Source: a virus
Virus record (IMG/VR): IMGVR_UViG_3300025301_000108
Location: 1 to 24,609 of that record
DNA length: 24,609 bases
Strand: one strand, 5' to 3'
Shown here: positions 5,705-20,194 of the stretch, one piece after another
Numbering within the stretch: position 1 is the stretch's first letter
Layout: each line of letters opens with the position of its first letter
Made by a program: the position numbers and the translations under genes
The notes under the pieces: model-generated
Told to the model about the DNA's origin: nothing
Seen by the model: the letters and a program-made list of their open reading frames with translations, nothing else
The model's database searches: none

Positions 5705-7198
5705 ATGGCAATTACAAATGGTCCTTTGTTAAATAGTGTACCTGCTCCACAGCAACAAACACTAGTAACAAACTACTTAGATTTCAACCAAGATATGGGT
5801 TGGGCTCAACAATATTTACCAGACCTAATGGAGCAAGAGGCTGAAGTTTTCGGACCGAGAACTATTTCAGGTTTCTTATCACAAGTTGGGGCTGAAGAAG
5901 CGATGTCTGCTGATCAAGTTATTTGGTCTGAACAAAGTCGTTTACACCTTTCTTATAAAGGTCACATCCACCACGTTACAACAAATGGTGGTCAAATTGA
6001 TATCGATTCTGATATTGATGAAGCTTCTGGTTTTACAGCCACTAAGCACGGTATTAGAATTAATGATACTGTTATCGTTGCTAATTCTCAAGGAGTAGTT
6101 AAATGTTTAGTATCAGCTGTTAGTGGTGCTAGAATAGACGTTAAGCCTTTTGAAGCTGCTTCTTTAAACGCTGCTGGTATAACTAGCACTGGTACTTCAA
6201 AAGAAACAACTATATTAGTTTATGGTTCTGAGTACGCAAAAGGTGTTGGTTATAACCAAAAAGGTGCTGCTTCTACAGTAGAATCAAGAGGTGCTAACGA
6301 ACCAGATTTTAAAACTTTCAGCAACAAACCAATTATAATGAAAGATTACTACGAGGTATCAGGTTCTGATACAGCTAGAATTGGTTGGGTTGAAACTACT
6401 GGTGAAACTGGTCAATCAGGTTACATGTGGTACTTAAAAGCTGAAGCTGATACAAGAGCTAGATTTACTGATTACTTAGAAATGGCAATGTTAGAAGGTG
6501 AAAAAGGTTTAGATGCAACTGCTGAAACTGCTGTTGATGATTTCCTTTATGGTGCTGATGGTGGTGAGAGAGTTGGTACTGAAGGTTTATTCGCTGCCAT
6601 TACATCTAGAGGTAATATTACTTCTGGTGTTACTGGTGTTAATGCTGCAACTGATTTAGCTGAGTTTGACGCTATCTTAGCTGAGTTTGACAAGCAAGGT
6701 GCTATTGAAGAAAACATGATGTTTGTAAACAGAGCTACTTCGTTAGCAATGGATGACATGTTGGCTTCTATGAATTCTTACGGAGCTGGTGGTACTTCTT
6801 ACGGGGTATTTGATAACTCTGAAGATATGGCATTAAACTTAGGTTTCTCTGGTTTCAGAAGAGGTTCTTATGACTTCTATAAGTCTGACTTCAGATACTT
6901 AAATGACTTAGCAACAAGAGGTGGTATTAATGCTGCAGCTGGTGCAAATGCGATTAGAGGGGTTATTGTTCCTGCTGGAACTTCAACTGTTTATGATCAA
7001 ATGCTAGGTAAAAACTTAAAGAGACCATTCTTACACGTTAGATACAGAGCTTCTCAAACTGACGATAGAAGAATGAAAACTTGGGTTACTGGTTCTGTTG
7101 GAGCTGCTACATCTGCTTTAGATGCAATGCAAATCCACATGTTATCAGAAAGATGTTTAGTTACACAAGGTGCTAACAATTTCATGTTAATGAAATAA
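5705..7198 (+). CDS. Major capsid protein
   Basis: This is the shell-forming coat protein, presumably of HK97 fold, acting in the virion head. The 497-residue product opens with a flexible N-arm (MAITNGPLLNSVPAPQQQ). A helical segment follows, DFNQDMGWAQQYLPDLMEQ (about 24-42), then mixed alpha/beta sequence rich in Gly, Ala and Thr. It lacks signal or membrane segments. Support comes from its position right after the scaffold-like gene, its length, and a codon pattern distinct from neighbours: glycine is mostly GGT and alanine mostly GCT, as expected for the most highly expressed structural gene. A strong hairpin terminator follows 17 bases after the stop, another common trait of capsid genes. 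The start ATG at 5705 follows an A-rich leader lacking Shine-Dalgarno complementarity. I recognise the role from context more than from a diagnostic motif. Confidence 0.88.
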   Translation: MAITNGPLLNSVPAPQQQTLVTNYLDFNQDMGWAQQYLPDLMEQEAEVFGPRTISGFLSQVGAEEAMSADQVIWSEQSRLHLSYKGHIHHVTTNGGQIDIDSDIDEASGFTATKHGIRINDTVIVANSQGVVKCLVSAVSGARIDVKPFEAASLNAAGITSTGTSKETTILVYGSEYAKGVGYNQKGAASTVESRGANEPDFKTFSNKPIIMKDYYEVSGSDTARIGWVETTGETGQSGYMWYLKAEADTRARFTDYLEMAMLEGEKGLDATAETAVDDFLYGADGGERVGTEGLFAAITSRGNITSGVTGVNAATDLAEFDAILAEFDKQGAIEENMMFVNRATSLAMDDMLASMNSYGAGGTSYGVFDNSEDMALNLGFSGFRRGSYDFYKSDFRYLNDLATRGGINAAAGANAIRGVIVPAGTSTVYDQMLGKNLKRPFLHVRYRASQTDDRRMKTWVTGSVGAATSALDAMQIHMLSERCLVTQGANNFMLMK

Positions 7199-8343: not shown

Positions 8344-9093
8344 ATGGTACTTATAGATACGGTTTATCAAAGAGTTTTAGCGTTAGCCAACAAGGAGCAA
8401 AGAGGATATATAACTCCTCAAGACTTTAACTTATTTGCTAACTTAGCTCAAATGGAAATATTTGAACAGTACTTTTACGACTTAAATCAATTTAGTAGAA
8501 TTCACGGTAACGACACTGTTTACTCTGATATGGTTAGCTTGTTAGAAGAAAAAATACAAATGTTTGAAGAGTATATGACACCAGCTGACACTAATCCGTT
8601 TATAGACGCTGCAGACAGTACCAGTAAAACATACCTGTTAAACGCCTTTCCTTTAATAGACGTGTATAGATTTGACCAGCTACACCTTAATGATAAAAGA
8701 GTTGAAATACTTAACAACAAAGATTTTAATAGATTTTCTAGATTTAATGCTAACGACGCTCCTTTATATAAAGCCACTACCGATAGACCTGTAGCAACAA
8801 TATCTAAATCTTCAACAGACACAGAGTTTAGGCAGATATCTTTAAGTCATGCTGGTAGCTTAGCTATATCGTATATTAGAGTGCCAGCAAGGGTTAATTG
8901 GGGTTTTACCGCTATAGGTACTGATTCTTTTTATGATCCAACTATATCTAATAACTTTGAATTACATGAATCTGAGCAAGCTGAATTGACTTATAGAATA
9001 CTAGTTTTAGCCGGCGTGTCAATTCAAAAGCAAGACGTAACGCAGGTCGCAGCCGGAATGCAGGGAGCAGCGGTTCAACAAGAAAAAAAATAA
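8344..9093 (+). CDS. Probable neck or head-completion protein
   Basis: The 249-residue product has a helical N-terminal block, TVYQRVLALANKEQRGYITP, then DFNLFANLAQMEIFEQYF (residues 6-44). A mixed middle follows, with a short beta-rich segment around ISLSHAGSLAISYIRVPAR (about 166-184). An acidic helix, HESEQAELTYRILVLAGV, and a Gln/Ala-rich tail close it. I recognise the general look of a protein found between capsid and adaptor genes in environmental podoviruses but not a named family. It starts nine bases after the mini-protein and ends four bases before the adaptor-like gene, so the three are almost certainly cotranscribed. A ring or connector protein at the portal-tail interface is the best guess from position; nothing catalytic is seen. 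Confidence 0.72.
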   Translation: MVLIDTVYQRVLALANKEQRGYITPQDFNLFANLAQMEIFEQYFYDLNQFSRIHGNDTVYSDMVSLLEEKIQMFEEYMTPADTNPFIDAADSTSKTYLLNAFPLIDVYRFDQLHLNDKRVEILNNKDFNRFSRFNANDAPLYKATTDRPVATISKSSTDTEFRQISLSHAGSLAISYIRVPARVNWGFTAIGTDSFYDPTISNNFELHESEQAELTYRILVLAGVSIQKQDVTQVAAGMQGAAVQQEKK

Positions 9094-9097
9094 ATAA

Positions 9098-10405
9098 ATG
9101 GGATTAATAAACAGCACAGATCAACAATATTACGTTGGAGATGATTTTGGAAATTATCAATTTGTTTCACTAGAAGCTATTATCAATCAATTTATGATTG
9201 CTTACGTTGGAGAGCAAAAAATTATATCTAAAGTAAAAAGATCTGACGTAGCGTTTCACGCTCAAAGAGCTTTAGCAGAATTATCTTTTGATACTTTTAA
9301 ATCGTTTAAATCACAAGAAATATCAGTTCCAGCTTCGCTTCAAATGATATTACCTCAAGACTACGTAAACTACACTAAAATTAGTTGGGTAGATTCTTCT
9401 GGTATTAAACATCCTATATATCCAACAACTAAAACTTCAAATCCTACTTCGATATCTCAAGATTCAAATGGAGAATACCTTTCTATTATAAGTGGTTTTA
9501 AAGAGGGTTTAACTACAGATGAAACAAATATTACTTACGCTAGTACAATAGCGCATGATACCACTAACAGTCAAGCTGACTTTACTGCAGCAGCTCAATT
9601 TGATCAGTTAAACTGGAACAACGTAAACAACTTTGAGGTTGGTAAATATTACACGTTGACTTACACTATAAGTAATGTGCCTTACTTAGATCCAATTTCA
9701 ACAGCGGTAGTTGCACAAGTAAAACCCAGAATAATTGACAACTTTGATAATTATGTTGATTTTACTGCACAATCAAAAAACGGAACATATACTCAAACAG
9801 TAGTACTTGGTGTAAACAATTTAGCTTTAAACCACGAAAATAGATTTTATTTTCAAGTTTCCACTATCACAGCATTTACTGGTAGCATATCAAACGTTAA
9901 GCTAGTAGAAAATGTTAATTTAAGTGTTGATAACGGTGGTTTAAACTCAGAATCATCAACTTGGTCAAGTTACAAATCTCAAACTCCTTCTGAAAATAAC
10001 AACGATAATTATGAAGATGATACTTATTGGCCGCTAGAGGGAACAAGATATGGCTTAGACCCTCAACACGCTCAAACAAACGGCTCTTTTTATATAGATC
10101 AAAATTCAGGAAAAATTCATTTTAGCTCTAATATTAGTGGAAAAACTGTAATATTAGATTATGTAAGTGATAATCTTGGTAGTGACAATGAGATGAGGGT
10201 GCATAAATTTGCAGAAGAAGCTATGTACAAGTGGATAGCTCATGCTGTGTTATCTACAAGGGTAAACATTCCAGAGCAATTGGTTATGAGGTTTAAAAAA
10301 GAAAGGTTTGCTGAGGTTAGAAAAGCAAAATTAAGATTATCAAACATTAAACTAGAAGAATTAACTCAAATTTTAAGAGGTAAATCAAAACAAATAAAAC
10401 ACTAG
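9098..10405 (+). CDS. Tail adaptor-like protein with beta insertion
   Basis: The probable role is as an adaptor ring joining portal to short tail (function comparable to P22 gp4 or T7 gp11), inferred from position and layout. The 435-residue product has a helical N-terminal region in which KVKRSDVAFHAQRALAELSF is followed by a conserved-looking beta stretch, SVPASLQMILPQDYVNYTKI (about 75-95). The C-terminal helical bundle contains KFAEEAMYKWIAHAVLSTR and PEQLVMRFKKERFAEVRKAK. Between them, about 140-277, lies a Thr/Asn-rich beta segment ending in FTGSISNVKLVE, which looks like an inserted jelly-roll of carbohydrate-binding-module type. Its stop is TAG, the only one in the window, and the next gene starts three bases later in the same frame. 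Confidence 0.75.
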   Translation: MGLINSTDQQYYVGDDFGNYQFVSLEAIINQFMIAYVGEQKIISKVKRSDVAFHAQRALAELSFDTFKSFKSQEISVPASLQMILPQDYVNYTKISWVDSSGIKHPIYPTTKTSNPTSISQDSNGEYLSIISGFKEGLTTDETNITYASTIAHDTTNSQADFTAAAQFDQLNWNNVNNFEVGKYYTLTYTISNVPYLDPISTAVVAQVKPRIIDNFDNYVDFTAQSKNGTYTQTVVLGVNNLALNHENRFYFQVSTITAFTGSISNVKLVENVNLSVDNGGLNSESSTWSSYKSQTPSENNNDNYEDDTYWPLEGTRYGLDPQHAQTNGSFYIDQNSGKIHFSSNISGKTVILDYVSDNLGSDNEMRVHKFAEEAMYKWIAHAVLSTRVNIPEQLVMRFKKERFAEVRKAKLRLSNIKLEELTQILRGKSKQIKH

Positions 10406-10408
10406 TAC

Positions 10409-13400
10409 ATGCCAGAACTTAAGCATCATTTCGCCGGTGGTAAAATGAATCTAGATCTTGATGAAAGACTAGTTCCCAACGGAGAATACAGAAAAGCATT
10501 TAATATTCAAGTTTCATCTTCAGAGGGGTCCAACGTTGGTGTTTTACAAAACCTACTTAGTAACGAGAAGGTATTGGGGCAAAGTAATACTATTGAAAAC
10601 GAAAACGTTGTTTACCATTGTATAGGTTCTATAGCAGAAGAAAAAAACGATGCTTTATATTGGTTTGTTAAACCAGAAGTTGGATCGTTATTTGCATATA
10701 CTGATTTCTTCAACTTTAACCCAACTTCACCACAATTAACAACTTATCCAGTTGACAATCTTTTTGATTGGACACCTTACACCGGAACTGGTTTTAGCCA
10801 AAGGGTAAAAACCCTAGTGGGTCAAGACATGATAATACAATATGTAAGAGGAGCAGTTAGACCTGTTGTTGTAGATCAATTTGAAGTTGTTTGTGGTAAT
10901 AAAGACTCGCAACACAGTTTGCCTACTTATCCATCCGGTGGTAATCCTTGGGAAACAAACGGGGAAATAAAAATGGAACTTTATGTCGACGCGTGGAATG
11001 CGGTGGAAGTTGGTTGGAATCTAGAGGGTTACACAAAAGGAACCGCTACCGATGGTTCAAGTTCTCAACTTACGCCAACTTCAAATATTGAAATAACTTC
11101 TAAATATATAGATGATAATGGTGATTATTATATTGGATTAAAAAACACATACAATTTTTCACCACCTATTAATACCTCTTTTAATTCTTTATATAACGAT
11201 ATATCTAACTTTGGCGCTGGTCCACAGGGTTTTGTAAAAGCTTTTTATTTTAAAAACAACACCCCAGCTCTTAATTTTAGAAGAGTTAAACATATAACTG
11301 GTGTGAACGTGATAGATGATATGATGTTTTGGACGGATGGTTATGATGAACCTAAAAAAATAAATATTACTAGGTCCATAAATGGTACAGAGTATGACGC
11401 ATCGCTTCCTACCTACTTGTTAAACGACGCAAGAAACATAGATAAATTTGATAAAATTAGACTAGAAAAAGACCACGTCACTGTTATTAAAAAATCCCCT
11501 AATAATCCACCTGCCTTACAACTAGTAACTGGAAGAGAGATAAAACAAACTGTTATTACCATATCTGGCGTTCAACACTTGTTGTTTGAGTCATACGCTG
11601 GAGTCTTTAACACTGGGGGTAATCACCCAACCACTCAGACAGATGACATTGTTTGGCTTGACGTGAGCGGTAGTGGAACGCAAGACACGAGTGTTAGAAA
11701 TTTAAGTGGTGTAATGCCAGGCTCAGAGTTTCTTTTAAATATAACGGAAAACTCAGAGGGTATAAGTACCGCTACTGATCATTTAACCTTTAAATGGGAT
11801 ATTGGTGACACCGTTGTTTTTAAAGAGTTTGATCAAACTAACACTGACCAACCACCATTGCCGTTAACAGATTACTCTATAAAAGGCGAAATAATTAGTA
11901 TGAGTAATTCTTCTGCTAATTCTACTCCAACAAACACGCTACAAGTAACAATAAGAGTTTCTGAGGTAAGTGAAACGCCCGCTGTTGCTAGTGATATCTC
12001 AAATGGTGAGTTAAGGTATGTTATTGATAAGTTTGATGAGGATAAAAACATTTTTGAGTTTAAATATCCTAGGTTTGCTTATAGATACAAATATGAAGAC
12101 AATGAGTACTCTCACTTTTCGCCATTTACAGAGCCAGCGTTTATTCCCGGCGCACTTGATTATCATCCAAAAAAAGGTTGGAACTTGGGTATGGCAAACA
12201 GAATAGAGTACATAGTAGTTAAAAACTTTAAGCCAGACGATATACCGCTTGATGTTGTTGAGGTTGATATTTTATATAAAGATGATTTATCGCCAAACAT
12301 TTACGTTATTGACACGATAAAAGCAGATGCCCAGAAAGACATATTAACAGCAAATTGGGCAGATAACCATCCTTTAGGTATTAATTTTGGACCGGGACAA
12401 CCTATAAACTACTGGCAGTTAAACGCGTATAAAATAACAGACGAGCAAATAAAATACGTTTTGCCTTCAAACCAACTTTTACGAATATATGATAACGTTC
12501 CTAGAAGAGCTAACGCTCAAGATATTACTGGTAATAGAATTGTATATGGTAATTATTTACAAAACTTTGATTTAATTGCAGCAGAGTTTGGTAACCCATC
12601 GTTTAACCCTAGTATTATACACTCTATAATAGATGGTAGTGCTGACTTTGGTTGGAGTGGAATTTTTGGTACGTATGAGCCACTTAGAAAAAATAGTAAA
12701 AGATCTATAAAATCTTTAAGAGAATATCAGTTAGGAGTTGTGTTTATTGATGAGTTCGGTAGAGAAACGCCCGTGCTATCAAATAGAACAAGTACTTTTA
12801 AAGTTTCAAAAAATCTTTCAGATCAAAACAACAAGTTACAAGTTGGAACAAGGTTTAGCCCACCTAGCGGAAACTTTGCTCCAATGAAGTATTTTAAATT
12901 CTTTATAAAAGAAACCTCTGGAGAATACTATAACATGGCTATGGACAGGTGGTATGACGCAAAAGACGGAAACGTTTGGATGTCATTTCCATCTAGTGAT
13001 GTGAACAAGTTAACTATTGATAGTTTTTTAATACTAAAAAAAGCAGCCGAAACAAATGAGTCTGTCGCAGAGCACCCGGCTAGATATAAGGTTCTAGCAA
13101 TCGAAAACGAAGCTCCGGATTATATAAAAACTACATACACTTTAATAGATAATAGATCTCATGGTGGTGATGTATTTAATGCTGGTACATTAAACATACC
13201 TAGATCAGGTATTAGTAATTTTGAATTGAATTTTCAAGAATTTTACAACACAAGTGCTTCAAACCTACACACTCAATTTCAAAACAAAGGTAATGATGAT
13301 TTTTACGTGCAGTTTGAATTGTTAGGTGCGCTTTCTAAAAAATACAAAATAAGCTCAATTACGTCTGACATTATATATGATAACACAACTGGTATAGCAA

Positions 13401-16400
13401 GTAATTTAACAACCTCTAAATATTATATAAAAACATCTTTAGCCTTTACTGATGAGGTTAACATGATTCTTGACGACCCAACAGGTGTAAGCCCAACGGG
13501 TGTTTTAGCTAACGCTAGAATGAGGTTGTTTAGAGCAAAACCAGAAAATAAACCAGAGTTTGATGGTAGATTTTTTGTAAAAATTTTTACAGATGATATA
13601 TTTGAAAAATATATTAAATCAGCTTACGATCCAATAAACGACGCAAACTTTTTAATAGGTCCAGAACTTAAGTTCTATTATATGAACGACGAGCATCACC
13701 TTATGCACGGTGGTGGAATTAGAGCTAATTCTACAGATTTCCAAGACGGTAACGGTTCGACTTATCACCCTGGAACTGGTTTTCCGAAAGAAAATGAGGT
13801 TAATCAATGGATGTATGATTTATTAGACGTAAACTCTCCAAACACAGTGTCAAACGCTGGGGACCGGTGGTTGGGTCTTGGTCCATGGACCGGATCAACA
13901 AGTTATACAAATGGCCATAAAATGGACAATGCCTACTCAGCCTCTAGACACATAGGTGGACCGCATGGGGAGCACAACGGTACAAGTGTAAAATTAGGAT
14001 TACGCCATTTTGCTGCTTTTTTTAGAAACTATGAGCACGCTGGACACGGGACTAACAGTGTGGGTTATAACGGTGGACATAACGACAGTTATACAAATTA
14101 TGATTTAAGACATAATGGTAATGCGCCAGCTAGCGGTAATCTTGCTGGTCAGTGGAATAAGCACCTTGGTAGCGCAGGTAGTGGCGCCCTTGATCCTGAA
14201 GATTGTTTTTCTTGGATATACAAGTTTCAGTATGGTACCACAAGTAACGACACAAGATGGAGAGAAGAGTATAACAATTACACCACTATTCCTTGGAAAA
14301 GTTTTGATCCAATGCTCGGTGATACAAACTGGCTGGCTTTCTCAAACGCAAATTTAGGTACATCTTATACAACAACTAATGTTTACGGTACCACGCTTAA
14401 CACTTGGTCCATAATTGCCATATCACCATTTGGTTCGCAATATGGTATTGCAGAAAAAGATTTACTTTGGGACACTTGGTGGCGTACTGATGGTTTAAAA
14501 AAGAGATCTGATGACCGGGCTAGAGATTCAGAGGTTTGGTATATGAATGAAGGCCGTTTTGCTGGCCGCGAGTATCACACAAACAATAAACAATGGATTT
14601 CTTTATATGGAGCGTCAAGAGGTTATGGTATAAAACCCCAATCTAATGAAATCATATTTGACTTGACATTAGGTGGTCTTTATGGGGAGCCAATAGATTC
14701 AATGGATGGAACAACAGGGATGAATGATCCAGATTTTTTTGAAATAGGTAAGTCAGGTGGTAATTCGATGTATCAAGACCAGACCACTGTTAATATTGTT
14801 AGCCAACTAAAACCAGGATCATATTTTAAACTTAAAGAAGACCCAACGGACTCTATGTATCAAATAGTTTCTGTTACAGAAAAAAATCTTTATAATTACG
14901 CGAGAACATCTAAAGGTGATAGCAACCAAGGTGGTTGGTTAAACGCCGCGATAACAAATAACAATGGCACACCAAAGCAATCTTTTCATGGGCTTGGGGA
15001 TGGTAGTGCTAATAATTTTGTGGACTGGACTTATACTGATAATCTTTTTTCTGGAAGTTTAATGGTTGCCAACAAGTGGTTTGGTGATTGGTGGTGTGCG
15101 TCAGATGTTGGCTTTGGTTTGACACCGAATACCATATCTAATAATTTTGAAACGATTTCCGCAATAGGCTTGTTTAACACGGAAGACGACAGCGGAAACT
15201 ATATACCTCAATCTCAAGGATACATTAACTGGAGTAAAAATAATAGTCATGGAAGTCAGTTATCGTGTAACTATAGTAAAATGTGGAGGATACGCGCTGT
15301 TAATATTGATGAGGCTAATCCAACCTTAATGCAATGGAATCCAACCGGTAGTAACACGGGTAATTTTGGACCTATAACAAATGGTACTAGTATAGATATT
15401 AGCGTTACTGAAAGCGTGGGGGCACCAAGTTCTCAAGAATGTGATTTGATAAGTGGTGCCTACGGTTTTTACACAGACTCGATAGTTAACACCGCGGGAG
15501 ACACGCTACAACAAGGTATGATCTTAACCCACCTTCAAGCCGCTGGTCCAACTAGTGTTGATTTTGACGAGATAATATCAAGCAGTTCTGATCATTCTAG
15601 TAAACTATATTTACAAGTTGGAAGAATTGTTCCAGATAGTACGCACACTCCTGATGGGTTTTTTGTTGAATTAGTTGGTTATATAAGACCACTAACAGTA
15701 AATGACACGCACGTTCTTAGTGATAGCACATGTATTTTAACATTTAAGCAGGCTAAGATGAATGGTTATAGTCTTAACTCTGTTAATAAAATATCAGCCA
15801 ACACAAAGTGGTCTCCATTTTATGACACAGCTACAACTGGTGGTGGCTTACAAGCCATTGGTTATACTCTTCAGTTTTTAATACCAGAAGAAGACGGTGA
15901 AGCACCTCTTTCTGATAATCCAGCTGTTTGGGAAACAGAACCTGAAGATGGGCCAGAGTTAGATATATATTACGAGGCCAGTCCACGTATACCAATAAAA
16001 TTAGAAAAAGACACTTCTAACGATTGGATTCCTACTAGGTATTCTAACAATTTAAATCTTACTAACAACACATACCCTGGTTTGAGTCTTGGTGGTATTA
16101 ATCAAAAAATACACAATCCTTATGGTTCTTATTCTAACTCTGTTATATTAACGCCTTTTTCAGGTCCTTATGCTAGTGGCTTTTTATCATCACCAAATTC
16201 CCTCGGCTCTGGAAGCGCTGGTTTAGCAGACACTTATGACGATTTTCTTGAAATAGTACGTGTTGACGGCGATATACTTACGTTAAGATGTGACAAACCT
16301 AATCTTATAGATGCGTGGGTAAAAAGTGCTGCTAACGGTATGATCCCAGCCCCACTGGATAAAATTATAAACATAGGAAGACCTGATGGCATTATTTTTA

Positions 16401-17815
16401 AAACTAAAATATTAGCACATAACATCGCTACAACAAACACTTTTATTTCTGGTGCCGCTGGTGGTATTACTGATATTGGAGGACTAGAACCTTATGTTGA
16501 TTGGGCTGACCCTAATTTTGGTGATGGGCACGAGAATTGCTTTAGAATTAAAATTACAGACGAGGTTTACGGTAATTGGCGTGGAAGTAAGAGTGGTTCT
16601 TCAATACATTTAAATTGGTATAATTGTTATTCTTTTGGAAATGGAGTAGAGTCAAATAGAATTAGAGATAATTATAACACGCCTTTTATATCTAACGGTG
16701 TTAGAGTCTCCACAACATTTGCTGATTACGCGCAAGAAGAAAGAAAGTACGGTTTAATATATTCTGGTATTTATAATTCTACAAGTGGGGTTAATAGTTT
16801 AAATCAATTTATACAAGCTGAAAAAATTACAAAAGACGTAAATCCAATGTATGGTAGTATTCAAAAACTACACTCTAGAGATACTGATTTAGTTACTTTT
16901 TGCGAGGATAAAGTTTTAAAAATACTAGCAAATAAAGACGCTGTGTTTAACGCTGATGGAAACCCTCAATTAACAGCTAATCAAAACGTACTTGGTCAAA
17001 CAATACCTTTTGTTGGCGAGTATGGTATATCAAGAAATCCAGAATCATTTGCGTCGGAATCTTACAGGGCGTATTTTACAGATAAGGTGAGAGGCGCTGT
17101 TTTAAGATTATCTAAAGACGGTTTAACCCCAATATCTGATGCTGGTATGAAAGATTGGTTTAAAGATAATTTAAAAAAATCAGAAAGTATAATTGGTAGT
17201 TACGATGATAAAAAAGATGAATACAATGTTTCTTTAAGACTTACAAACGCAGACTTAGAGTTGTTTAGTGTAAACCAACCTTACTCCATAAATCAACCAG
17301 TTGTTGTTAGTTATGATGAAAGAGTTAAAGGTTGGACTAGCTTTAAAACATTTGGAGAAATGGAAAGCGGAGTTAGCATGGCTAACAATTACTACACGTT
17401 TAAAAACGGAATGATGTGGATGCACCATTCTGAAGAAGGTAGCTATAATACTTTCTACGGTCAAGAATTTGTTTCAGAGGTAAACGTGTTGTTAAACGAT
17501 GAGCCTAGTGTAGTGAAAAGCTTTAAAACTATTGGTTACGAGGGTAGTGAAAGTAAAATTCCAAATAGAGTTGACGGGACAAATACAACTGAAGATCTTT
17601 ACACAAGAAAGGGTTGGTATTCATACAAAATGACTACTGATTTAGAAGTCGGTAGTTTTGTTTACTTTACAGAAAAAGAAGGAAAGTGGTTTTCAAGAAT
17701 AAAAGGAACAAACAAGCTTACTGATGTTGGTGGTTCAATAATTGGATTTGATACTAGTAGCTTTGCAAACCAAGGTATTGGACGGGTTAGCGTGGGTGAT
17801 ATTACTTATTTATAA
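10409..17815 (+). CDS. Giant tail hub/stabilization-like protein (2468 residues)
   Basis: The N-terminal signature FAGGKMNLDLDERLVPNGEY with KAFNIQVSSSEGSNVG (residues 8-44) is, from memory, characteristic of the 'stabilization' or hub proteins of crAss-like and related podoviruses, functionally likened to P22 gp10. Further blocks of that family are FWTDGYDEPKKINI (around W308), a PRFAYRYKYEDNEYSHFSPF block (about 550-575), and a C-terminal domain from residue 2138 on with KDVNPMYGSIQKLHSRDTDL and YFTDKVRGAVLRLSKDGL. It probably forms the tail hub beneath the adaptor. The length greatly exceeds the roughly 700-1500 residues I associate with such proteins. The excess includes a Gly/His/Trp-rich region at about 1090-1450 and a beta-rich region to about 2100. 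No enzyme motif is evident. The ATG at 10409 follows the adaptor stop by three bases. Confidence 0.82.
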   Translation: MPELKHHFAGGKMNLDLDERLVPNGEYRKAFNIQVSSSEGSNVGVLQNLLSNEKVLGQSNTIENENVVYHCIGSIAEEKNDALYWFVKPEVGSLFAYTDFFNFNPTSPQLTTYPVDNLFDWTPYTGTGFSQRVKTLVGQDMIIQYVRGAVRPVVVDQFEVVCGNKDSQHSLPTYPSGGNPWETNGEIKMELYVDAWNAVEVGWNLEGYTKGTATDGSSSQLTPTSNIEITSKYIDDNGDYYIGLKNTYNFSPPINTSFNSLYNDISNFGAGPQGFVKAFYFKNNTPALNFRRVKHITGVNVIDDMMFWTDGYDEPKKINITRSINGTEYDASLPTYLLNDARNIDKFDKIRLEKDHVTVIKKSPNNPPALQLVTGREIKQTVITISGVQHLLFESYAGVFNTGGNHPTTQTDDIVWLDVSGSGTQDTSVRNLSGVMPGSEFLLNITENSEGISTATDHLTFKWDIGDTVVFKEFDQTNTDQPPLPLTDYSIKGEIISMSNSSANSTPTNTLQVTIRVSEVSETPAVASDISNGELRYVIDKFDEDKNIFEFKYPRFAYRYKYEDNEYSHFSPFTEPAFIPGALDYHPKKGWNLGMANRIEYIVVKNFKPDDIPLDVVEVDILYKDDLSPNIYVIDTIKADAQKDILTANWADNHPLGINFGPGQPINYWQLNAYKITDEQIKYVLPSNQLLRIYDNVPRRANAQDITGNRIVYGNYLQNFDLIAAEFGNPSFNPSIIHSIIDGSADFGWSGIFGTYEPLRKNSKRSIKSLREYQLGVVFIDEFGRETPVLSNRTSTFKVSKNLSDQNNKLQVGTRFSPPSGNFAPMKYFKFFIKETSGEYYNMAMDRWYDAKDGNVWMSFPSSDVNKLTIDSFLILKKAAETNESVAEHPARYKVLAIENEAPDYIKTTYTLIDNRSHGGDVFNAGTLNIPRSGISNFELNFQEFYNTSASNLHTQFQNKGNDDFYVQFELLGALSKKYKISSITSDIIYDNTTGIASNLTTSKYYIKTSLAFTDEVNMILDDPTGVSPTGVLANARMRLFRAKPENKPEFDGRFFVKIFTDDIFEKYIKSAYDPINDANFLIGPELKFYYMNDEHHLMHGGGIRANSTDFQDGNGSTYHPGTGFPKENEVNQWMYDLLDVNSPNTVSNAGDRWLGLGPWTGSTSYTNGHKMDNAYSASRHIGGPHGEHNGTSVKLGLRHFAAFFRNYEHAGHGTNSVGYNGGHNDSYTNYDLRHNGNAPASGNLAGQWNKHLGSAGSGALDPEDCFSWIYKFQYGTTSNDTRWREEYNNYTTIPWKSFDPMLGDTNWLAFSNANLGTSYTTTNVYGTTLNTWSIIAISPFGSQYGIAEKDLLWDTWWRTDGLKKRSDDRARDSEVWYMNEGRFAGREYHTNNKQWISLYGASRGYGIKPQSNEIIFDLTLGGLYGEPIDSMDGTTGMNDPDFFEIGKSGGNSMYQDQTTVNIVSQLKPGSYFKLKEDPTDSMYQIVSVTEKNLYNYARTSKGDSNQGGWLNAAITNNNGTPKQSFHGLGDGSANNFVDWTYTDNLFSGSLMVANKWFGDWWCASDVGFGLTPNTISNNFETISAIGLFNTEDDSGNYIPQSQGYINWSKNNSHGSQLSCNYSKMWRIRAVNIDEANPTLMQWNPTGSNTGNFGPITNGTSIDISVTESVGAPSSQECDLISGAYGFYTDSIVNTAGDTLQQGMILTHLQAAGPTSVDFDEIISSSSDHSSKLYLQVGRIVPDSTHTPDGFFVELVGYIRPLTVNDTHVLSDSTCILTFKQAKMNGYSLNSVNKISANTKWSPFYDTATTGGGLQAIGYTLQFLIPEEDGEAPLSDNPAVWETEPEDGPELDIYYEASPRIPIKLEKDTSNDWIPTRYSNNLNLTNNTYPGLSLGGINQKIHNPYGSYSNSVILTPFSGPYASGFLSSPNSLGSGSAGLADTYDDFLEIVRVDGDILTLRCDKPNLIDAWVKSAANGMIPAPLDKIINIGRPDGIIFKTKILAHNIATTNTFISGAAGGITDIGGLEPYVDWADPNFGDGHENCFRIKITDEVYGNWRGSKSGSSIHLNWYNCYSFGNGVESNRIRDNYNTPFISNGVRVSTTFADYAQEERKYGLIYSGIYNSTSGVNSLNQFIQAEKITKDVNPMYGSIQKLHSRDTDLVTFCEDKVLKILANKDAVFNADGNPQLTANQNVLGQTIPFVGEYGISRNPESFASESYRAYFTDKVRGAVLRLSKDGLTPISDAGMKDWFKDNLKKSESIIGSYDDKKDEYNVSLRLTNADLELFSVNQPYSINQPVVVSYDERVKGWTSFKTFGEMESGVSMANNYYTFKNGMMWMHHSEEGSYNTFYGQEFVSEVNVLLNDEPSVVKSFKTIGYEGSESKIPNRVDGTNTTEDLYTRKGWYSYKMTTDLEVGSFVYFTEKEGKWFSRIKGTNKLTDVGGSIIGFDTSSFANQGIGRVSVGDITYL

Positions 17816-17823
17816 AAAACAAT

Positions 17824-19800
17824 ATGAGTTATTCAAAAAAAAATTTTTTAGATACTTACAATAGATTAGGTATAGAGAATTTACAACGTCAACTAGATGT
17901 AGGTATTCCTAGTTCTAATAATTATACCCCAAACCTTGATTTTTTAAACAGTGCTTGGGAAGATTATTTGTTATACGGTTGCAATTCTTTAAATGGTAAG
18001 ATAATAGAGCTTAACGGGCAGCTGTCGAGCGTTGGCATTAACACTCCTAGTTATAACTTAAACAAAGCACAGACTACTTTTTTTGAGCAGATAGAGGTTC
18101 AGTGTGGTTGCACTAAAGATAACCCAACAATAACACGTACTGCCTTATCCGCGCCAATAGTAAAGGTAATTAAAAAAGTTGAATTTAACAGTGATAGCCT
18201 ACCAGAGACAGGTGGTAAAAAAATTATTGATGTTATTGGAGACAACGAAAGTGTATTTAGCATTTTTGTAACAAACAGTAGCGGTGAGTTTTATGATTTT
18301 GAAACCCATGGTTTTACTTCTACTCAAAAGATATTAAAAAATGCGGTAATAACAGGTGGTAGAAAAGATATTACTGTTAATTTTCCAAGTGTTATAACAA
18401 CAGATATTGTAGATGGTGATTTTAGTGGTGGCGCTACGGCTATAACAATGGATACTGCTGTTGCAACTAAAATGAAAGTGGGAGATAGAGTTACTGGTAA
18501 CGCTGTTTTAAACGCTGGTAGTTTTACTGTTGCTTCGTTAGATAGCACGAATGTTTTTTCTTTGTCTGCTGCCGCCGCTATAGACGACAACACTCCTTTA
18601 AATTTTTCTGGAAACGAGTCTTATGAGGTAACGGTCGTGGCAAACGCAGAACACAACACGGTACATGCTAACTACTCAGAGGTTAGGCATGCTGATAACT
18701 CTATCGATATAAACAACAGCACGGGTTCTAACTCAGCTAATCTAACAAAAAAAATATTTCAATATAAAAATAACGTTGTAAATATAAAAGCTATAACGCC
18801 AAACTCTTTAACTACTTTTACTAGTTTTACTATTGTAAATGAAACTATCACAATAAACAAAAGAGGTGGTACGGTCAAAGTTCCTTTTACTATTACTTGG
18901 ACTGCTAACGCCGCAAAGGCGGTTTATATAAAAACACAGCCAACAATAGAACACATGTCTACCTTTGTAACTCGGACTGTTGGCGCGGCAGCGTTACCAA
19001 TCGTAGGTGAAGACGTTAGTGGATCTACTTTTTACAGATGGCCCTTGGACAATGTTGTCGGGCTGACGAATCGCATGAGGATAGCTCCAGATACAAACGT
19101 TACAGCTTTTTCAATAATTAGCGATTATATAGATGAAACTGAAATAAAAAGTTATAGTGAGGAGCAGTTGTCAAGAAAAACAACAACAGGCCCAACAAGT
19201 CAAACAACACCTCTTCGTGGACCAATTAGTTCTAGCTCACTTTTAAAAACCTCTTACGCTAATGTTGAGGTTCCTGGAGTAGAGTTTACTGGTGATCCTA
19301 CTGTGGTGGATGGGGTTGTGACTTCTCAAGCTGGTAATATTGTTTTAAACAAAAAGCAAGTGGACGCATTAAAAGGTGATGCTATAAAAATTGTAGCCGA
19401 CGGGCCTAGTTTAATAAACGCTTTAACTGGATATGAGTTTAAAGTAACAAACTTAAAGGCCGAGCTAACTAAACCTACTACAACAACCGTGGAGGCTACC
19501 AGCGCACACGCTACTATAAGAGTGGCTGACAGGGAGGGTGTTATTAATAATGTTTCTAAAGTTAGTGGTATAGGTATAGATTCTTCAGTTAAAAACCCAA
19601 CACTTACAACTGGTGGCGGTTTAGATGGTGAGGGTGACTGGATTATGGATACAGTTCAAACTTTAGAAAACGGTATTACGTTAACGCTAGAAAACACAGG
19701 TAGAATAGTAACAATAACTGGAGAAATTGAATTTACAAAAATTGGTGATAATGACGTGGATATATTTTTTGATATAGAACAGTTTTTAGGTACCGCATAA
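17824..19800 (+). CDS. Beta-rich tail-region structural protein
   Basis: The 658-residue product begins with a helical/loop region that would pack against the tail (1-90, with NSAWEDYLLYGCNSLNGKII) and a CxC pair at C94 and C96. It then becomes beta-rich. Residues about 200-263 form a module of the type 'I-T-M-D..KVGDRVTG...SFTVASLDS..FSLSAAAA', which I recall as a repeated structural module in marine phage virion proteins. Around 320-375 an Ig-like stretch is suggested (TITINKRGGTVKVPFTITWT). The C-terminal 140 residues include GDAIKIVADGPSLINALTGY and end in a beta domain, LTLENTGRIVTITGEIEF. It lies eight bases after the hub gene. A tail fibre, spike or hub-decorating role is likely; no collagen-like repeats or lyase motif is seen. 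Confidence 0.72.
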   Translation: MSYSKKNFLDTYNRLGIENLQRQLDVGIPSSNNYTPNLDFLNSAWEDYLLYGCNSLNGKIIELNGQLSSVGINTPSYNLNKAQTTFFEQIEVQCGCTKDNPTITRTALSAPIVKVIKKVEFNSDSLPETGGKKIIDVIGDNESVFSIFVTNSSGEFYDFETHGFTSTQKILKNAVITGGRKDITVNFPSVITTDIVDGDFSGGATAITMDTAVATKMKVGDRVTGNAVLNAGSFTVASLDSTNVFSLSAAAAIDDNTPLNFSGNESYEVTVVANAEHNTVHANYSEVRHADNSIDINNSTGSNSANLTKKIFQYKNNVVNIKAITPNSLTTFTSFTIVNETITINKRGGTVKVPFTITWTANAAKAVYIKTQPTIEHMSTFVTRTVGAAALPIVGEDVSGSTFYRWPLDNVVGLTNRMRIAPDTNVTAFSIISDYIDETEIKSYSEEQLSRKTTTGPTSQTTPLRGPISSSSLLKTSYANVEVPGVEFTGDPTVVDGVVTSQAGNIVLNKKQVDALKGDAIKIVADGPSLINALTGYEFKVTNLKAELTKPTTTTVEATSAHATIRVADREGVINNVSKVSGIGIDSSVKNPTLTTGGGLDGEGDWIMDTVQTLENGITLTLENTGRIVTITGEIEFTKIGDNDVDIFFDIEQFLGTA

Positions 19801-19810
19801 TAAATATAAT

Positions 19811-20194
19811 ATGCCATATACAACAGAAGGATTTATGAATGTAGATTACAACATTAACGAATCATTAGCTATTAATGATTTATTGTGGTGTACTTGCACA
19901 ACTCCAGCGGGTGGAGAAAATTGGAACAACAATATTGGGGGTTCTATTAACTGGGGTGTTGTAACTGAAATAAACCCTACTAATATAGGTTTTAACTTTA
20001 CGGCTGTAAGTAGCACTGGCTTTCCAACAGCACCTTGCCCTGGCACTTGGTTTGTTTCTTTTACTAAAAACGCAGCTTCACAAAAATCCTCAATAAAGGG
20101 TTATTATAACTTAGTTAACTTTGTAAATGATGACAATGATCACGAAGCAGAGTTGTTTGTGGTTAATTCCGAAGTTACTCCTAGTAGTAAATAA
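19811..20194 (+). CDS. Small beta protein of tail module
   Basis: The 127-residue product is predicted to be mostly beta, rich in Asn, Thr, Gly and aromatic residues. It has a CTC pair at C27/C29, a later C75-like cysteine in TAPCPGTWFVSFTK, and a C-terminal strand-turn-strand, KGYYNLVNFVNDD followed by EAELFVVNSEVTPSSK. Similar C-termini (GYY..V.F.N, then AELF.V.SE...SSK) are familiar to me from small proteins beside tail genes of environmental Bacteroidetes phages, without assigned function. It begins ten bases after the 658-residue gene and is followed by the 51-base gap holding a palindrome. It may be a small tail-decorating or trimeric head domain; this is inference only. Confidence 0.68.
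   Translation: MPYTTEGFMNVDYNINESLAINDLLWCTCTTPAGGENWNNNIGGSINWGVVTEINPTNIGFNFTAVSSTGFPTAPCPGTWFVSFTKNAASQKSSIKGYYNLVNFVNDDNDHEAELFVVNSEVTPSSK

Follow-up and report, generated by a model that had tools for sequence, protein, structure and literature searches.

What is the histidine-rich segment in the middle of a very long structural protein of a probably marine virus, and what might it do? The protein (P0001) is encoded in a 24,609-nucleotide stretch of viral DNA from IMG/VR (record IMGVR_UViG_3300025301_000108, positions 1 to 24,609), referred to here as the window. An earlier interpretation made from the letters of the window, the sequence-only reading, described it as a hub protein carrying a single Gly/His/Trp-rich insertion. 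To answer this question we considered the identity of the protein, the behaviour of the segment across relatives, and the predicted structure and conservation of its histidines.

Identity of the protein and its gene setting

Judged from its sequence, P0001 is a homologue of the crAss-like muzzle, a tail-tip protein, because Pfam and PHROG matches and the gene layout agree on this identity. The crAss_MUZ_C domain (PF25729) was matched at residues 2344-2432 with 42.5 bits against a curated cut-off of 27, and a profile comparison aligned residues 2141-2379 of P0001 with residues 1055-1279 of gp44 from phiCrAss001 (probability 95%, E 3.1e-8). Upstream ORFs have PHROG matches to terminase and portal, the ORFs at 5705-7198, 8344-9093 and 9098-10405 match PHROG 'virion structural protein' families, and the layout from the portal onward is that of phi38:1 and elemoF. 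By gene order, the ORFs between portal and muzzle would have capsid and ring-type tail roles, giving the succession terminase, portal, capsid/ring-type tail genes and muzzle that is seen in crassviruses. When a model of residues 825-1886 was searched against the viral structure library BFVD, the only match at E ≤ 0.001 was the muzzle of Virus NIOZ-UU157 (E 6.1e-23), a match whose TM-score is low (0.21) and whose rmsd is large. The phage is probably a marine relative of the gut phage crAssphage, its marine origin being suggested by named relatives from seawater and Baltic Sea records. The hub, or trimeric fibre, of the sequence-only reading thus gives way to a muzzle, reported as a hexamer in phiCrAss001, and the statement that no family is recognised fails for the protein, which has Pfam and PHROG matches, while it stands for the segment alone, which has no Pfam match.

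According to the passages on gp44 in PMC10172136, the phiCrAss001 muzzle forms a hexamer at the end of the tail and is composed of a ring-joining domain, a propeller and two Ig-like domains, with a 'crass' domain inserted in the second Ig-like domain (IG2). In those passages the crass domain is placed at the tail tip, where the authors think contact with the cell surface likely, and length variation among muzzles is attributed to insertions into the crass and IG2 regions; the docking idea recurs in the corresponding part of a review (PMC10136315). P0001 is expanded in its middle: its anchor-to-anchor length of 1062 aa exceeds that of every one of the 69 relatives, out of 78, that had both anchors (597-980 aa), the other nine running off their end. 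The segment would correspond to the IG2/crass region of gp44, an equation that rests on position because the middle of P0001 has no significant alignment to gp44 (IG2 region against the middle, profile probability 6.8% at best). Features of the protein are collected in Table 1.

Table 1. Coordinates of features of the muzzle protein P0001 in the window.
Feature	Coordinates	Strand	Evidence or remark
Muzzle (tail-tip) protein, crAss-like (P0001), 2468 aa	10409..17815	+	PF25729 E 8.8e-11; PHROG 14478 E 3e-117
Residues 825-1886, expanded middle region, by position the putative IG2/crass region of gp44	12881..16066	+	Length; AlphaFold pTM 0.64
Residues 1089-1361, the His/Trp/Gly-rich stretch at the heart of the finding, fast-evolving	13673..14491	+	
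HHLMH, in which H1096 and H1100 form the HxxxH recurring in relatives	13694..13708	+	
H1120, third subclade-invariant His	13766..13768	+	
Residues 1180-1214, second and third His clusters of the sequence-only reading, not conserved	13946..14050	+	
Residues 1204-1208, FFRNY, conserved island within the variable region	14018..14032	+	
Residues 1370-1500, conserved core including the end of the interval first described	14516..14908	+	G1407, D1478; pLDDT mostly >65
Residues 1501-1612, second variable loop	14909..15244	+	
Residues 1881-2060, third variable loop	16049..16588	+	By position the putative gp44 G-H insertion
crAss_MUZ_C domain, residues 2344-2432	17438..17704	+	Pfam match

Several observations concern the C-terminal end of the muzzle and the genes beyond it. 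A repeat, A.NY...A...DGSC, occurs in 1-10 copies in the muzzles of 32 of 57 complete relatives (for example L034, L016 and L018); all 105 copies lie in C-terminal extensions, beyond the conserved C-terminal core, and none is present in the window protein or in L090-L093. The 127-aa ORF at 19811-20194 of the window resembles the muzzle C-terminal end of some relatives, with 12 matches at E ≤ 0.01 in 10 contigs (best 7.6e-11, L113), as if the terminal domain were here a separate gene. Between it and the muzzle gene, the 658-aa ORF at 17824-19800 has no family match; relatives sharing 37-47% identity with it were listed at no fewer than 25 loci, a number that counts some contigs twice, and it is possibly a fibre or tip protein. 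In the structural gene block, the 136-aa ORF at 20246-20656 matches an unnamed PHROG strongly (E 4.1e-33) and a PHROG acetyltransferase weakly (E 8.6e-5).

Composition and turnover of the segment among relatives

The interval originally singled out, residues 1090-1450, does correspond to 13676-14758, with its three histidine motifs at the positions given for them. Compared with the rest of the protein it is enriched in Gly (47/361 vs 165/2107, P 0.0013), His (15/361 vs 29/2107, P 0.0009) and Trp (14/361 vs 34/2107, P 0.007), one-sided Fisher P values that are flattering as the interval had been picked for its composition; the enrichment also proposed for Asn (P 0.35) and Tyr (P 0.22) was not found in it. 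Scanning the whole protein in 120-residue windows, we found that the best His window (11 His from residue 1094) was equalled by 0.2% of 2000 shuffles, compared to 4.4% for the best Trp window and 13.9% for the best Gly window, and therefore only His is locally unusual in P0001, Trp being marginal and Gly unremarkable. Nor is the interval a single insertion: the variable stretch extends from residue 1089 to about 1361-1368 (273 aa in P0001), and residues 1370-1450 contain conserved core columns with pLDDT mostly 65-96. In alignment A1, the core positions W1377, G1407 and D1478 are conserved in 44, 60 and 59 of 60 rows, respectively.

Relatives were taken best-first from IMG/VR, some of them near-identical or the same contig fetched twice. 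The first scan, with search patterns built from the window protein alone, found 101 related stretches, of which the best 80 were kept; 78 of these loci had a fitting start (L071 and L074 were dropped), 57 ending in a stop codon and 21 running off their end. The later scan found at least 528 related stretches, and again the best 80 were taken. Deduplication at 80% core identity gave 48 representatives, window included. A k-mer filter left 60 rows in alignment A1; 48 of them, without those whose domain is shortest, make up A2. In A4 the window stands with 29 relatives selected mainly for closeness or for a similar architecture. Where each region begins and ends in the relatives was read from a single MAFFT alignment. 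L089 (NZMJ01000002.1), a contig binned as a Maricaulis MAG, also encodes a muzzle relative and is perhaps of phage origin and misbinned.

A stretch occupies the same place in every one of the 57 complete relatives; its length there is 68-233 aa (median 134), versus 273 aa in P0001. In the 48 deduplicated proteins, the window's among them, the stretch exceeds the core of the same protein in His content in 46 cases, in Trp content in 46 and in Gly content in 47; Ile, Val and Lys are depleted in it. Family-wide, over nine regions, His is highest in the stretch (3.71%; next 2.67%), Trp reaches 3.21% in 1362-1500 versus 3.09% in the stretch, and Gly is higher in both 1501-1612 and 1362-1500. At the sequence level, relatives therefore carry at this position a stretch with the same His/Trp/Gly bias and with different sequence and length.

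Two of the search results could be explained if this phage alone had recently acquired a foreign domain in its muzzle: blastp against the first 78 relatives, partials included, mostly aligned the flanks and, across 1160-1320, only L061, and the segment alone as query retrieved no locus. The later search, however, recovered L090 (IMG/VR contig 3300030098_004514), a protein of 2457 aa that aligns with P0001 end to end at 51% identity, segment included, and L091-L093, which also cross the segment; all four had been missed in the first search. A search with the subclade profile A3 gave no full-segment relative beyond L090-L093, those contigs being the four best of 70 listed loci. Together with the same-place stretch in all 57 complete relatives and its shared bias in nearly all deduplicated ones, the alignment of L090 already contradicts a foreign domain, which we regard as extremely unlikely, and an insertion unique to this phage was rejected on the same grounds.

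The segment turns over quickly. Its median identity is 0.29 over the 60 closest pairs out of 114, pairs that are not independent of one another, compared to 0.56 for residues 287-824, 0.60 for 825-1088 and 0.80 for 2081-2280. Two other loops are as variable in the same 60 pairs, 1501-1600 (0.23) and 1881-2060 (0.30), so the segment is not unique in this respect; the latter loop would by position be the G-H insertion described in the gp44 passages of PMC10172136. In four of five close pairs omega for the segment was 0.24-0.31, the highest of six regions in those four, and the fifth pair (L063/L067) had no amino-acid change in the segment (omega zero). These values indicate relaxed purifying selection; being below 1, they do not point to positive selection. 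The stretch changes faster than most other parts of P0001 and yet is constrained by purifying selection. A diversity-generating retroelement was tentatively set aside, a reverse transcriptase (PF00078) being found in none of 18 records with a match, which may be fragments, and in 3 of 14 genomes of the control. Near the N-terminus, residues 81-286 (10649-11266) form another poorly conserved stretch, without a His bias; each 40-residue bin across 81-280 was covered by about 10-35 of the first 78 relatives.

Predicted structure and the histidines

Structure was predicted for the monomer, and yielded no confident fold for most of residues 1101-1367. An AlphaFold model of residues 825-1886 (60 sequences) had a pTM of 0.64; its pLDDT stays under 50 for most of 1105-1367 and 1501-1612, with an island of about 60-75 at 1197-1210, which includes FFRNY. 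A second model, of residues 1046-1500 (30 sequences, closest relatives included), failed at 1101-1200, 1211-1280 and 1293-1364 and was better over 1370-1500. A sequence search of the PDB with the protein or the middle-region alignment gave no match, Foldseek of the model against the PDB found no chain at E 0.001, and the best VIA-align hit (Z 7.5 over 92 residues) was within the range of common arrangements, gp44 not being among the 50 rows listed. Pfam searches over the 60 members of A1 gave only scattered weak matches, the most frequent in 3 of 60.

The low pLDDT of both models (below 50 through most of 1105-1367 in the first and most of 1101-1364 in the second), combined with the large length variation among relatives, is what would be expected of a disordered, low-constraint linker that merely spaces out the core. 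We consider a linker unlikely: a thin alignment alone is also expected to give low pLDDT, the composition is Trp-rich, omega is 0.24-0.31 in the four pairs given above, and the region retains the conserved islands HxxxH and FFR.Y, the latter with F1205 in 51/60, R1206 in 37/60 and Y1208 in 28/57 of the A1 rows.

The sequence-only reading had proposed that the clustered histidines coordinate metal. Within the subclade formed by the window and L090-L093, which amounts to about three lineages as L091-L093 are alike, the only segment histidines that are invariant (5/5) are H1096, H1100 and H1120. Of 101 distinct proteins, the window's among them, 35 have an HxxxH motif at 26-70 residues beyond FDGRFFVK, versus 106 of 7950 random windows drawn from the same proteins; H1120 is His in 6 of 22 aligned rows of A4 and 0 of 15 of A2. 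L090-L093, the four closest relatives, lack every histidine of 1180-1189 and 1208-1214; these are also rare elsewhere (in A2, H1186 3/19 and H1213 2/47), and metal clusters at these two sites were rejected for this reason. H1200 is common, within the subclade, to the window and L091-L093 only. H1252 is aligned with His in 8 of 10 rows of A2, seven of them His-Leu in L009-like proteins, but in 0 of 2 rows of A4, in 1 of 21 of A1 (the window itself) and not in L090-L093. HxH does not occur anywhere in P0001, and is present within the region in 9 of the 48 representatives.

These counts bear on whether the histidines coordinate iron or zinc, stiffening the tip on the model of the T4 long tail fibre with its HxH needle. 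Such a metal-binding tip would draw on the local His enrichment, which is real, on the three invariant histidines, on the recurrence of HxxxH and on H1252 as aligned in A2. We nonetheless think it quite unlikely, given the loss of the second and third clusters in L090-L093, the lack of any HxH in P0001, the 66 of 101 distinct proteins without HxxxH, and the description of the phiCrAss001 muzzle, in the part of PMC10172136 that concerns it, as a hexamer rather than a trimeric needle. Most of the histidines look incidental, part of a surface composition rather than metal-binding, and a structural role is more likely for H1096/H1100, which would sit at the base, where the core gives way to the variable region. 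A three-His site at the base of the region is possible. It is very unlikely that H1096, H1100 and H1120 of the six subunits bind metal at the base of the muzzle tip, keeping the tip closed and acting in the trigger on host contact; if true, a crAss-like lineage would have a gate pinned by metal, akin in principle to HxH fibre tips and yet distinct from them.

Proposed role and comparison with known systems

We favour the reading that the segment is a fast-evolving, host-contacting part of the muzzle tip, and consider it probable, with the contact itself deduced. The host-contact guess of the sequence-only reading was in this sense a sensible one, as the position of the segment is that of the tail-tip domain thought to touch the cell. 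Six copies of P0001 would form an assembly at the tail end, as in phiCrAss001, with the variable stretch exposed at its tip; because most of the region is without a confident model, this exposure is something we infer. There the stretch may contact host surface molecules, its aromatic, His and Gly residues being suited to glycan or protein contacts, and host contact could then help to trigger gate opening. Beyond the length variation through crass/IG2 insertions that is already published (gp44 passages, PMC10172136), our analysis adds that turnover of the sequence in this clade leaves two short motifs and the His/Trp/Gly composition in place. A defined fast-evolving stretch of the muzzle, and not only separate fibres, may thus encode host recognition in a widely sampled crAss-like group, and the stretch is a concrete target for host-range mapping.

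The long tail fibre tip of T4 (gp37), with the HxH iron sites described in the relevant part of PMC11705849, likewise has histidines in a tail-tip protein, but P0001 lacks HxH, belongs to another protein family and differs in its reported oligomer. Closest to P0001 is L090, which keeps HHLMH and H1120 and lacks the histidines of 1180-1189 and 1208-1214. The muzzle of Cellulophaga phage phi38:1 (gp097, 1324 aa, Pervagoviridae) is encoded in the same gene order as in the window and is homologous on both sides of the middle (residues 187-505 with P0001 543-910, E 7.2e-51; residues 861-1219 with P0001 2065-2460, E 4e-118). Between these matches it has about 356 aa versus about 1155 aa in P0001; no counterpart of the segment was found in this ordinary-length homologue, which has no room for it, and the alignment of relatives bears out the earlier description of a variable accessory region in a tail protein. 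The phi38:1 group in turn aligns with the N-terminus of gp44 by profile (probability 86%). The phiCrAss001 muzzle gp44 (PDB 7qok, 7qol, 8ckb) has 1371 aa versus 2468 aa in P0001, no significant sequence match in the middle and, over residues 453-904 (His 1.5%, Gly 6.0%, Trp 2.7%), no comparable His or Gly bias. With P0001 it shares the C-terminal profile match and a gene position after the portal, the major head protein and the tail tubular/ring genes.
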